In this document: positions 24,867-63,961 of the stretch, in pieces | Numbering within the stretch: the stretch's first letter is position 1 | Layout of the letters: every line of letters begins with the position of its first letter | Origin: Mesorhizobium sp. ORS 3359 | GTDB taxonomy: Bacteria > Pseudomonadota > Alphaproteobacteria > Rhizobiales > Rhizobiaceae | Direction: 5' to 3' | Assembly: GCA_000824845.1 (NCBI GenBank) | Contig: CCNC01000138.1 | Coordinates: 1 to 64,000, forward strand | DNA length: 64,000 nt | Notes under the pieces: model-generated | The model's input: the letters and a program-made list of their open reading frames with translations, nothing else | The model's database searches: none | What the model was told of the DNA's origin: nothing | Program-made: the position numbers and the translations under genes

Positions 24867-24892
24867 AACGCCTCAGCGCGTTGACTGGTTCC
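24867..24892 (-). promoter_or_regulatory. EcfG-type (general stress response) promoter of the universal stress gene
   Basis: On the minus strand: GGAAC at 24892-24888, a 17-bp spacer, then CGTT at 24870-24867. This is an exact match to the GGAAC-N16/17-CGTT consensus of alphaproteobacterial EcfG/RpoE2 sigma factors. It lies about 42 bp before the USP start codon, a sensible target for this sigma factor. Confidence 0.75.
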
Positions 24893-25774: not shown

Positions 25775-26749
25775 ATGCTGATATCGATTGTCCTGTGGCT
25801 GCTCGCGTGCTTGCTCGCCGCGGCCGCCCTTGTCCTGTTTGCCCTGATGCTCGCGACATGGCGGATCGCGGTGAGATCTGAAAGGCTGGTGCCGGCTTGC
25901 GGAAAATTCATCGAGATCGACGGCAACCGCATCCATTATGTGGAAGAAGGCCAGGGCAGGCCGATCGTTTTCCTGCATGGGTTGGGTGCCCAACTCCACC
26001 ATTTCCGCCATACGCTGTTCGGACGTTTCGGCGCCGGCTACCGCCTGATCGCGCTCGACCGGCCGGGCTCGGGTTATTCGGTTCGGACAAGTGGCGCGAG
26101 CGGCCGGCTGCCCGAACAGGCGGACATCGTGCGGCGCTTCATCGAGGAACTGCGGTTGGAACGACCGTTGATCGTCGGCCATTCGCTGGGCGGCGCCGTC
26201 GCGCTTGCGCTCGCCACCGAGCATCCGACGTCGATTTCCGGCGTCGCGCTGCTGTCGCCGCTGACGCATCTCGAAGCGAGGATAGGTCGGCGGTTCGACC
26301 TGCTCTACGTTCCATCGCCGCTGCTGCGCCGGGTCCTGGCCTATACGGCGGCGATACCGCTTAGCCTGCGTTACGCGCAGCCAACGCTGAAATTTATCTT
26401 CGCGCCGCAAGCGGTTCCCGCGGACTACATGATCGCCGGCGGCGGATGGCTCGGGTTGCGCCCGTCCCACTATTTCGCCACCTCCACCGATGTCGTGGCC
26501 GTGGAACGCGACCTTGGCCAAATCGAACGGCGTTACCGCGACATAGCCATGCCGGCTGGCATTCTGTTCGGCACGGGCGATCGTGTGATCGGCGAGGCCG
26601 TCCATGGCGAACCGATGCTGGACGAGATCAGCGGTCTCGACTTCGAACGGGTCGAAGGGATGGGCCACATGCCGCAATTCGCGGAACCCGAACGTGTCGT
26701 CGCGTTCATCCAACGTATCGCCGCACGCGCCTTCGCCGGCGTGAAATGA
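25775..26749 (+). CDS. Alpha/beta hydrolase with N-terminal membrane anchor
   Basis: A 324-residue alpha/beta-fold hydrolase. An uncleaved hydrophobic anchor (about residues 3-28) is followed by the catalytic domain: oxyanion region VFLHGLG, ALDRPGSGYS, the nucleophile elbow GHSLGG, an acid near GTGDRVIG, and the terminal His in GMGHMPQF. The substrate cannot be predicted; the anchor places it at the inner membrane facing the periplasm. ATG 25775 starts directly before the anchor. Divergent from the CinA-like gene. Confidence 0.85.
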   Translation: MLISIVLWLLACLLAAAALVLFALMLATWRIAVRSERLVPACGKFIEIDGNRIHYVEEGQGRPIVFLHGLGAQLHHFRHTLFGRFGAGYRLIALDRPGSGYSVRTSGASGRLPEQADIVRRFIEELRLERPLIVGHSLGGAVALALATEHPTSISGVALLSPLTHLEARIGRRFDLLYVPSPLLRRVLAYTAAIPLSLRYAQPTLKFIFAPQAVPADYMIAGGGWLGLRPSHYFATSTDVVAVERDLGQIERRYRDIAMPAGILFGTGDRVIGEAVHGEPMLDEISGLDFERVEGMGHMPQFAEPERVVAFIQRIAARAFAGVK

Positions 26750-30039: not shown

Positions 30040-31857
30040 TCATTGGCCCATGGCAGGACACTGGCCGGCGGGGCCGCCCGACGCTGGATATCGATAGATG
30101 CGCAGCGGCCCCGCAACGGGGCATTCCGTCAACCACTCCGGAGCCTTTCCCGTGGCCAACCGGCTGGCCAATGGAAACCGGGCTTCGACCGGCTGAAGGG
30201 CCGTTTCCTCCACACGGCAGACCGCGACATGGGTGGCCTTGGTTTGATCGAGAAGCTGCGTCGGGTCGGACGTAGCCGGATCAAAAAATCTAAGGACGCG
30301 CTCGATGCCCTTGGCCGATGTGTGAAAAGGGACGGCCACGACGTCGAGTTCCTCAGGAGACCCCAAAGCGGCGATCCCGATATCGGGAGGCGCGAACAGT
30401 CTCGCGCCCTTCGGCCAAATAAAATCCGGGCCGCTGCTGGCTTGCGCGCAGGCATTGGCGATGTCGACGCCAAGCAGCTTTGCAGCCCGAGGGGGCCAGA
30501 CCACATAGCTTAGAAGAAGGGCAGCAATGACCGCCACGCCCGGGGCGGCCAGAAGCCAGGCGCGCGGCAACTTGTCCGTCGACCTGGCTGCGAAATAGCG
30601 CCTCAGCGGCAGGCTGGCTGGAATGCCCTGATGGACGAGCAAGGCAACCCCGGGGCCGACGAAGAGCGGAAAAAACCGCAGGTACCTTAGATAAAGCAGT
30701 CCCAACAGGAGGCCGACAGCCGAAAAGACCGCCAGGACCCACCAGGCTCGCTTCCTTGTCGAGGCGGTAATGGCCAAAATGCATGTCGCCGCCGTGCCCA
30801 GAATGGCGACGAAAAACCGTGCGAAACGATCGGAGCCCAGAAAGTCCGCGCTGAAGAAGATGCTGCGTTCCTGCTCGATGCGGGAGAGCCAATTGTCGCG
30901 AACATAGTCGCTGAGACCGACGAGCGGGCCGCCCGCGCATTGGGGGAAGAGGAAGACGAGCATCGCGGCGGTCGCGCCGGCACCGGCCAAAAGGCACAGG
31001 GCGCGTATGTACCAGCGTCCAATTCCTCTGGTCAGCGAGACACCTGCAAGCACGGCGCCGGCAGTCGCAAGCGCGGTGAGGTGCAAAAGCGAATAGCGGT
31101 CGCAAGCGGCGCTTTTGTAGGCGTCGGGTCCCACGACCACAAAGAATGCGGCAATGCCGGCGGCCGCCAGCGCCAGACCGTACGCCCCTAGGTCCTTGGC
31201 TGCATCCTTCGTTCCGGCGATGAATACCAATGCGTAGAAGCCGGCCGGAAGAACAAGGAACGGCGCCATTTCGGCGCTGATCGCGGTGGACAGAGCCATT
31301 AGGGCGCCGTTCAATCCGGCGGCAACCGGCGCGCCACGGATCGTCAGCAGCACCGCCCCCAGGAGGATGAGCATCTGCAGGTTGTGGTAGTCGATGCGCC
31401 AGGGCTGGAATTCCGAAAACGCGGGCAGCCCGGCGAAGGCGGCGACGCTCAGCACCACGCCTGGATGGTCGAACTCGAATTCCCTGATCACGAGGAAAAG
31501 CAGGGTTAAAGCGGCCAGGAGGAGCAGGAGCGGCACGGTGAACGCGGCGGCGGATAAGGCAGTTCCCATCCCGACAAAAGGCGCCAGCGCGATGGCTAGC
31601 AACGCATAGGGCGCATCGACGATCCAGGGCCAGTGCGAGACCATGGGCTCGGGCTGGGCGATACCGGTCAGCGTTCTGTCGAACGGATTGCCCGTGTGCA
31701 GAAGATGCCTGATTTCATGCAGCTTCATGAGATCGTCGACGTCGCCGTTGGGCATGTTGCCGAGCAACAGGAGCAGGCTCAGAACCGTACTGAGCGCCAG
31801 CCAGACGAATACGACCGGGGCAGGCGTGTGGCGAAAAATCGCCTTGATCGTCGACAT
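30040..31857 (-). CDS. Polytopic membrane protein, possible GT-C glycosyltransferase
   Basis: A 605-residue protein with about eleven hydrophobic segments across residues 15-450 and a soluble C-terminal periplasmic domain. The first loop carries GNMPNGDVDDLMKLHEIRHLL, an acidic pair where GT-C glycosyltransferases place their catalytic Asp. I do not recognise a named family, and no neighbouring sugar or lipid genes help. ATG 31857 was chosen over the longer frame because it leads directly into the first membrane segment. A tRNA-Leu gene lies 92 bp upstream on the same strand. Confidence 0.7.
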   Translation of the reverse strand: MSTIKAIFRHTPAPVVFVWLALSTVLSLLLLLGNMPNGDVDDLMKLHEIRHLLHTGNPFDRTLTGIAQPEPMVSHWPWIVDAPYALLAIALAPFVGMGTALSAAAFTVPLLLLLAALTLLFLVIREFEFDHPGVVLSVAAFAGLPAFSEFQPWRIDYHNLQMLILLGAVLLTIRGAPVAAGLNGALMALSTAISAEMAPFLVLPAGFYALVFIAGTKDAAKDLGAYGLALAAAGIAAFFVVVGPDAYKSAACDRYSLLHLTALATAGAVLAGVSLTRGIGRWYIRALCLLAGAGATAAMLVFLFPQCAGGPLVGLSDYVRDNWLSRIEQERSIFFSADFLGSDRFARFFVAILGTAATCILAITASTRKRAWWVLAVFSAVGLLLGLLYLRYLRFFPLFVGPGVALLVHQGIPASLPLRRYFAARSTDKLPRAWLLAAPGVAVIAALLLSYVVWPPRAAKLLGVDIANACAQASSGPDFIWPKGARLFAPPDIGIAALGSPEELDVVAVPFHTSAKGIERVLRFFDPATSDPTQLLDQTKATHVAVCRVEETALQPVEARFPLASRLATGKAPEWLTECPVAGPLRIYRYPASGGPAGQCPAMGQ

Positions 31858-51102: not shown

Positions 51103-51127
51103 GGAACGGCGCCCGCGTGGCGCCGTT
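51103..51127 (+). promoter_or_regulatory. Possible EcfG-type promoter upstream of lon, overlapping the clpX terminator
   Basis: GGAAC (51103-51107), 16 bp, CGTT (51124-51127) is an exact match to the general-stress consensus, about 220 bp before the lon start. Because AACG...CGTT is forced by the hairpin symmetry here, the match may be coincidental. Confidence 0.35.
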
Positions 51128-63521: not shown

Positions 63522-63546
63522 GGAACGCTCCTGAAGCGAGCGCGTT
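63522..63546 (+). promoter_or_regulatory. Exact EcfG-type promoter of the putative RiPP precursor gene
   Basis: GGAAC (63522-63526), a 16-bp spacer, CGTT (63543-63546), identical to the general-stress consensus. The implied start is about 25 bp before the ATG at 63580. It lies 40 bp past the ribokinase stop. Confidence 0.75.
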
Positions 63547-63579
63547 CATCCTCCTGGTCGGCAACGCCGGAACGGCAGG

Positions 63580-63678
63580 ATGAAGAGATCTTACGAAAAA
63601 CCCACGCTCGTGAAGCAGCAGAAGCTCACCGAACGGACGGCCCAGATAGTCGCTTCCGGCGTCGTCCTGGGCGAATGA
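63580..63678 (+). CDS. Putative RiPP (lasso-peptide-like) precursor peptide
   Basis: A 32-codon ORF. The leader begins KRSYEKPTLVKQQKLTERT, with the YxxPxL motif of lasso-peptide leaders, a Leu/Lys stretch and a Thr at the position that often ends the leader. A short hydrophobic Gly-containing tail (ASGVVLGE) follows. Similar orphan peptides are annotated in rhizobia as putative RiPP precursors. The core is short and no protease, cyclase or ABC exporter gene is visible up to the window edge, so maturation is unproven. An exact EcfG promoter precedes it; the ribosome-binding site is only moderate (GGAA). Confidence 0.6.
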   Translation: MKRSYEKPTLVKQQKLTERTAQIVASGVVLGE

Positions 63679-63703: not shown

Positions 63704-63907
63704 CTACAGAATCCTGCTGGTCAGCTCCAGCATCGTGGTTGCGCCTTGCTCGCTGCCGGGCATATGCACGACGCGCAGGACCCGAAGGTCCCTGCTCGAT
63801 CCTTCGACCGGTATCGACACGCTTTCACCGACCCGCGGCAGCTCCTGGAAGGCGAGCTCGTCGACATCCCTCTCATCGTCGATGGAAATCCGACATCTCA
63901 CAGCCAT
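63704..63907 (-). CDS. Conserved small protein of unknown function, stress-promoter-linked
   Basis: A 67-residue, mostly beta protein: MAVRCRISIDDE, then FQELPRVGESVSIPV and the closing DLRVLRVVHMPGSEQGATTMLELTSR. I have the impression that similar short proteins occur in other rhizobia, but I know no function. An exact EcfG promoter, GGAAC-N16-CGTT, lies 30 bp upstream on the minus strand. It converges on the putative RiPP precursor gene, with 25 bp between the stop codons. Confidence 0.72.
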   Translation of the reverse strand: MAVRCRISIDDERDVDELAFQELPRVGESVSIPVEGSSRDLRVLRVVHMPGSEQGATTMLELTSRIL

Positions 63908-63936: not shown

Positions 63937-63961
63937 AACGGGACAAGGTTGGAATGGTTCC
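63937..63961 (-). promoter_or_regulatory. Exact EcfG-type promoter of the 67-codon gene
   Basis: On the minus strand GGAAC (63961-63957), 16-bp spacer, CGTT (63940-63937). The implied start is just upstream of the ATG at 63907. Confidence 0.75.

Follow-up and report, generated by a model that had tools for sequence, protein, structure and literature searches.

A small Mesorhizobium gene with a lasso-type leader and a conserved EcfG-type promoter, and a cyclase-less enzyme cassette as its predicted partner

The locus

The window, by which we mean the whole 64,000-nucleotide stretch analyzed here, carries near its right end a short open reading frame (ORF) preceded by a general stress promoter box and followed by a convergent gene with a box of its own. 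The features are as follows (window positions):

63522-63546, + strand: EcfG-type promoter, GGAACGCTCCTGAAGCGAGCGCGTT, with -35 GGAAC at 63522-63526, -10 CGTT at 63543-63546 and an N16 spacer
63569-63575, + strand: possible ribosome-binding stretch GGAACGG, suggested by the sequence
63580-63678, + strand: precursor ORF, MKRSYEKPTLVKQQKLTERTAQIVASGVVLGE, 32 codons plus stop, from translation and dN/dS
63580-63642, + strand: predicted leader, residues 1-21, with Y5xxP8xL10 and T20-A21, placed by the lasso register
63643-63675, + strand: predicted core QIVASGVVLGE, residues 22-32, as implied by the same register
63655-63657, + strand: Ser26 (core position 5), proposed modification site, from conservation in orthologues and family
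63704-63907, - strand: convergent 67-aa gene behind an EcfG-type box, ending 25 bp past the ORF stop
63937-63961, - strand: EcfG-type box of the 67-aa gene, GGAACCATTCCAACCTTGTCCCGTT, a motif match

Stretches resembling GGAACGG were also observed before the ATG in many of the plus-oriented orthologue loci. A PADLOC scan gave no match.

The ORF is under purifying selection

The orthologous ORF was found across the genus Mesorhizobium. Its dN/dS is about 0.09 (634 usable of 703 pairs among 38 sequences), which indicates purifying selection, with values of 0.11 in the leader and 0.07 in the core. Conservation at codon positions 1, 2 and 3 is 0.91, 0.95 and 0.71. Together these patterns bear out the coding nature that a preliminary description of this DNA had ascribed to the ORF. 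All 17 orthologue sequences in alignment A2 have Ser26. The ORF falls below every NCBIfam and Pfam cut-off, the best scores being 15.5 of 30 bits for NF033534 and 14.5 of 22.6 bits in Pfam.

The promoter box is conserved among orthologues

The same description had reported an exact EcfG consensus before the ORF, and GGAAC-N16-CGTT is present as stated, 33 bp 5' of the start at 63580. The exact box alone is weak evidence, as it occurs at chance frequency genome-wide: the 6.86-Mb genome holds 92 copies vs. 108 of the reversed pattern used as a control. Within the window, seven GGAAC-N15-17-CGTT matches were counted vs. 1.27 expected from shuffles. Those not listed above lie at 24867-24892 (-), 26146-26169 (+), 26683-26706 (+), 31541-31566 (-) and 51103-51127 (+).

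The box is significant because it is conserved in orthologues; a motif and an ORF without this comparison would be unconvincing. The first 72 orthologue loci came as two sets (34 and 38, partly of the same origin) and collapsed to 48 distinct sequences. All 48 have the box within 150 bp upstream, 47 with an N16 spacer and one with N17, at 57 to 83 bp from box to ATG. Counted by locus, it was found for 30 of 30 oriented orthologues in the initial 30 loci (the window's own copy included) and upstream of all 38 orthologues in L060-L097. Of 50 orthologue sequences in all, drawn from 74 strong matches (E <= 7.4e-13) that 73 genomes contain, 48 have the box; the exceptions come from genomes G203 and G112. 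An alignment of the relatives' upstream regions, proposed at the outset as a check, recovered both the box and the YxxPxL leader register. With 37 loci anchored on the box, the spacer was better conserved (0.72) than the DNA upstream (0.47) or downstream (0.54) of the box; the value of 1.00 for the hexamers follows from the search, which required them. Of 4000 random 150-bp draws from the L060-L139 loci, 42 contained a box. A chance motif before a chance ORF would agree with the genome-wide count of exact boxes, yet it is already refuted by 48 boxes in 50 orthologues against this background of about 1%, and we give it practically no weight. The ORF is very likely a real gene with an EcfG promoter.

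The regulators that would act on such a promoter are encoded in the genome. PhyR (NF006623, 388 bits), NepR (PF18557, 54.6 bits) and an ECF sigma factor (NF009199, 355 bits) were detected. The sigma factor adjoins nepR and phyR, and from this position it is called as EcfG. The exact GGAAC-N16-CGTT box also precedes phyR and nepR-sigma of the same genome. These two units are divergent, and their exact boxes stand back to back with 9 bp between them (L144:1271-1329). According to the available text of a study on Rhizobium etli, the EcfG1 motif there is likewise GGAAC-N16-CGTT and occurs in 19 of 56 transcription units down-regulated in an ecfG1 mutant (PMC3892343). The conserved box, the three regulators and the R. 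etli motif together lead to the strong prediction that transcription of the ORF depends on EcfG.

The convergent neighbor probably does not account for the box

The highly conserved 67-aa gene has a homologue near the ORF in 23 of the 30 initial loci, and in 21 of these 23 it has a box on the minus strand. Two lack the box: the copy in L012 is interrupted by an internal stop, the peptide gene there being intact, and the copy in L030 is displaced. Among the second locus set, after partial hits were dropped, all 20 full-length ungapped homologues have the box upstream. The protein is predicted to be a small beta protein of five strands (pLDDT 73.6), and no fold match was obtained at E <= 0.001.

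With an EcfG-boxed convergent gene ending so close to the ORF stop, the box before the ORF might be thought to serve this neighbor or a small RNA, the ORF being incidental. The codon-position pattern and dN/dS of the ORF argue against this. Furthermore, the box before the ORF is kept in 8 of 30 loci in which the neighbor is absent within 1.5 kb (L024, L027, L029, L034, L036-L038) or displaced (L030). We consider this explanation very improbable.

A lasso-type leader with a core that does not fit the lasso rule

If the peptide is cut after Ala21, then Tyr, Pro and Leu of the YxxPxL motif fall at -17, -14 and -12 and a Thr at -2. The YxxPxL leader recognized in the preliminary description therefore holds in motif and in register (Y5, P8, L10). 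In the available text on the bsf cluster, bsf-type lasso precursors have YxxPxL at -17 to -12, and most lasso precursors have Thr at -2 (PMC10368454).

Beyond the leader, the peptide departs from this group. Lasso cores begin with Gly (or Ala, Ser or Cys) at residue 1 and have Asp or Glu at residues 7-9, followed by a tail. The core here has Gln at position 1 and Val, Val and Leu at positions 7, 8 and 9, and its sole acidic residue is the last one. Judged by its residues, QIVASGVVLGE would be unable to form a lasso ring, and the ORF would not be a lasso precursor. The 'lasso-type' product of the preliminary description is not supported, as there is neither Gly at core position 1 nor an acid at 7-9 with a tail, and the cassette described below contains no cyclase.

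The ORF belongs to a multi-copy leader family

The leader is shared with other genes. Nine family places were found in the same genome at E <= 10, the ORF among them, with the consensus MKKxYxKPxLxKRxxLxxxTA; beyond the TA the members diverge. The ORF, which had been taken for a lone orphan precursor, is instead one promoter-switched member of a multi-copy family. We compared 50 unique non-orthologue peptides, eight from the same genome and 42 from other loci (two of the latter, L110 and L111, carry titles other than Mesorhizobium). All 50 have Ala at position 21 (-1), and 41 have Thr at position 20 (-2). Every core has a Ser or Thr somewhere, and 43 have one at core position 5. By a loose rule, a single one of the 50 cores is ring-capable. 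The cores of paralogues are variable, unlike the orthologue core. One paralogue in the same genome begins with a TTG start.

The box is specific to the orthologues. It was found upstream of none of the 42 non-orthologue members in L098-L139, which include five near relatives (L098-L102, C-terminus TAQIVVSGVT), and of none of the eight paralogues in the same genome. The paralogue precursors of L042, L043 and L045 resemble one another upstream, with a TTGACA-like stretch and no EcfG box, as if they used another type of promoter.

A cyclase-less cassette on another contig

Modifying enzymes acting in trans had been postulated, and a candidate set lies on another contig of the same genome and co-occurs with the leader family as detailed below. 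This cassette (locus L053) consists of four genes:

C142:14458-15483, + strand: N, nucleotidyltransferase-like
C142:15471-16415, - strand: K, HPr-kinase-like
C142:16460-16894, - strand: B2, lasso-type cysteine peptidase (NF033537, 67.8 of 33 bits)
C142:16891-17178, - strand: stand-alone PqqD-like RRE (best PDB match TfuB1, 6jx3, E 8.2e-6)

The flanking genes are what we take to be dhaK and prpE. The nearest PDB structures to the RRE are TfuB1 and TbiB1. Neither a cyclase nor a lasso-type transporter match was found in the 19 kb of L053. Residues C74 and H111 of B2 are identical in 54 of 54 loci. K is a weak HPr-kinase relative whose Pfam score is below the cut-off (20.9 of 33.3 bits), and H121, G141, G143, K144, D161 and D162 are found in all 53 aligned sequences; K has Ala in place of the first Gly in the published lasso-kinase motif, and BsfK lies outside the alignment. 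No EcfG box was found within 300 bp upstream of the cassette RRE (0 of 30).

The genome has four PqqD-type and two B2-type matches, the latter both on contig C142. The PQQ-type RRE on C46 and the PqqD-like protein on C139 were set aside, B2 relatives being confined to the two C142 loci.

Leaders and cassette co-occur in the genus

The distribution of leader family and cassette was compared in 146 genomes of the genus, using profile A2 at E <= 1e-6 for the leaders and E <= 1e-5 for cassette B2. Leaders were found in 100 genomes (A2 was used here and the broader A3 elsewhere, so divergent leaders could escape) and cassette B2 in 97. Both are present in 97 genomes, leaders only in three, B2 only in none and neither in 46 (Fisher's exact test, 8e-35, a value that ignores phylogeny). 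Cassette B2 is also present in the genomes of all 34 loci of one orthologue set. On a single-gene rpoB tree of 131 genomes, B2 requires six changes, the leaders eight and the pair nine, about five of which coincide. Shuffled B2 labels require 37 changes on average. In seven loss genomes (L315, L316, L317, L320-L323), all four cassette genes are gone and the flanks are kept. At L318 a single flank is visible, L324 and L325 are uninformative, and three controls have all four genes.

The three genomes with a leader gene and no cassette B2 are G112, G203 and G114. In G203, the ORF is intact and the -10 element reads CGTC. In G112, the ORF is intact and a deletion of about 95 bp relative to G203 has removed the box. 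Both losses of the box would agree with decay once the cassette was gone. In G114, the leader gene is a paralogue whose sole difference is a CTG start; this could also be decay, but the evidence is weak because a paralogue in the genome studied here starts with TTG.

These genomes bear on the possibility that the ORF encodes an unmodified small stress protein, with the leader a relic and selection acting on the whole 32-residue chain. The somewhat lower dN/dS of the orthologue core than of the leader would suit such a protein, as would the intact ORF in the two cassette-less genomes G112 and G203. On the other hand, the promoter is gone in precisely these two of two genomes, and the leader register is kept across orthologues. 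On balance, this explanation is unlikely.

The genome also holds a complete lasso cluster (on C142, L054:5353-12959) with A, B1, B2, C, K, N and an ABC transporter; its cyclase matches NF033535 with 778 bits. Some 25 kb separate the cluster from the cyclase-less cassette, and the cluster's precursor has GGAGTTALD after the leader. With a cyclase and a precursor at hand, and a leader motif and register in the ORF that match lasso precursors, the ORF could be an ordinary lasso precursor matured by this cluster. The absence of ring residues from its core, and from nearly all cores of the family, speaks against it. The cluster's own precursor passes NF033528 and NF033521, whereas the ORF passes neither. 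The distribution of complete-lasso (type-1) B2 also fits the leaders worse than that of cassette B2: with type assigned by E-value, both are present in 95 genomes, leaders only in five, type-1 B2 only in 13 and neither in 33. On core residues and co-occurrence, a lasso product of the L054 cluster was rejected, and the ordinary-precursor explanation is quite improbable.

Returning to the cassette, co-occurrence of the family does not prove that the ORF itself is a cassette substrate. Considering all the evidence, we nevertheless hold it likely to be one.

Precursors lie beside the cassette in other genera

B2 was found in 24 of 394 family-level genomes, six from the same genus and 18 from nine other genera. 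Around the 18 B2 genes of other genera (loci of 17-19 kb), RRE and K were each found in 17 and N in 16; seven had an ABC transporter match and none a cyclase. Leaders (profile A3, E <= 0.01) were detected in 16 of these 18 B2-bearing genomes vs. none of 62 genomes without B2, six of which are congeneric with a positive. As for the two genomes missed by the profile, G530 has two leader-like ORFs adjoining the cassette, and G447, in which no leader was seen, has a B2 with an in-frame TGA (G447:C55:366193-366579, L333). In 10 of the 16 genomes, B2 has one or more leader genes no farther than about 6 kb away. Runs of leaders reach 10 in G375, five in G400 and G457, and four in G486 and G355. The G375 run (L379:9243-11100) has about ten tandem precursor genes with differing cores beside one cassette.

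Among 49 peptides from other genera, every core has a Ser or Thr, at position 4 in 43% and at position 5 in 24%. None of the 107 leader copies (a redundant set) in other-genus loci has an EcfG box upstream. A link to RiPP machinery is seen for the family as a whole: the RRE and enzymes co-occur with it in Mesorhizobium and are physically linked to it elsewhere. The simplest history would have the precursors first beside the cassette and then dispersed in Mesorhizobium, where one gained an EcfG promoter.

A proposed pathway

The best explanation of the locus, to which we assign a probability of about 0.7, is a linear modified peptide controlled by EcfG and matured in trans. It builds on the conservation of promoter and ORF, the membership in the leader family, the co-occurrence and co-loss of the cassette, its linkage to leaders elsewhere and the conserved catalytic residues. 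Upon stress, PhyR would free EcfG from NepR, and EcfG would transcribe the ORF. Translation would give a ribosomal precursor in which a lasso-type leader of 21 residues precedes a core of 11. The stand-alone RRE on C142 would bind the leader and hand the peptide to B2 and K. B2 would most likely cleave after Ala21, a cut site that we think probable. As for K, its most likely target would be Ser26 (core Ser5); phosphorylation at this residue, proposed by analogy, is about evenly balanced. N may then add a sugar or a nucleotide onto the phosphate. The product would be a linear modified 11-residue peptide made under stress, linear because the cassette has no cyclase and the core no possible ring. 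RRE binding, the cut site, phosphorylation, EcfG dependence and a biological role are proposed from genome comparison.

The enzymatic steps are proposed by analogy with known lasso clusters. In the bsf lasso cluster, as given in the available text, the RRE assists leader removal by B2, and the kinase phosphorylates core Ser3 at a rate increased by the RRE (PMC10368454). The lasso kinases covered there target a C-terminal Ser or Ser3, not position 5 (PMC10368454). For pseudomycoidin, the available text describes a nucleotidyltransferase that attaches a hexose to the phosphate (PMC8498205).

More broadly, a cyclase-less branch of the lasso machinery (RRE, B2, K and N) might turn families of small precursors, each with a single variable core that contains Ser/Thr, into linear phospho- or phosphoglyco-peptides. 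In Mesorhizobium, the precursors would have left the cluster and taken promoters of their own, and one enzyme set would serve differing regulatory inputs, stress included. We would give this wider picture an even chance. If true, the lasso machinery has a non-lasso branch, and the PhyR-EcfG regulon gains a modified peptide as an output. Rhizobial orphan 'putative RiPP precursors' have been annotated without enzymes or roles; a specific trans-acting enzyme set is now proposed for them, with a predicted cut site and modified residue, and with the general stress response as the defined trigger of one family member.

Comparison with known systems

The family is in part already annotated at NCBI as 'putative RiPP precursor' genes of Mesorhizobium (one of three matched plasmid records), and in the literature searched this annotation comes without machinery, promoter or cleavage register. 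Among open-access papers screened by title and start of abstract, none presented either a RiPP precursor under EcfG control or an RRE-B2-K-N system lacking a cyclase, and an open-access search found none pairing the EcfG/RpoE2 regulon with a lasso-type precursor. With respect to regulation, the box is exactly the one used in the EcfG/RpoE2 regulon of alphaproteobacteria, as in R. etli EcfG1 and the genome's own phyR and nepR-ecfG.

A PqqD-like protein together with an HPr-kinase relative is also found in the HprK_rel_A and SynChlorMet (ScmC/ScmD) cassettes of NCBIfam. The cassette described here differs from these in its B2 peptidase and in the low scores of K, which are far below the cut-offs of these models (30.9 of 200 and 19.5 of 125).

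The closest likeness is to the phosphorylated lasso clusters, namely bsf, paeninodin (with K) and pseudomycoidin (with K and N); RRE (B1), B2, K and N are shared with clusters of this kind. Also shared are YxxPxL at -17 to -12, as in bsf-type precursors, and the Thr at -2 of most lasso precursors, according to the available texts (PMC10368454; PMC8498205). The system described here differs in that there is no cyclase C, few cores are ring-capable, and many precursors are encoded per genome and dispersed in Mesorhizobium. Our best reading is that it is a cyclase-less relative of the phosphorylated lasso systems, in which one dispersed precursor has been captured by the general stress response.
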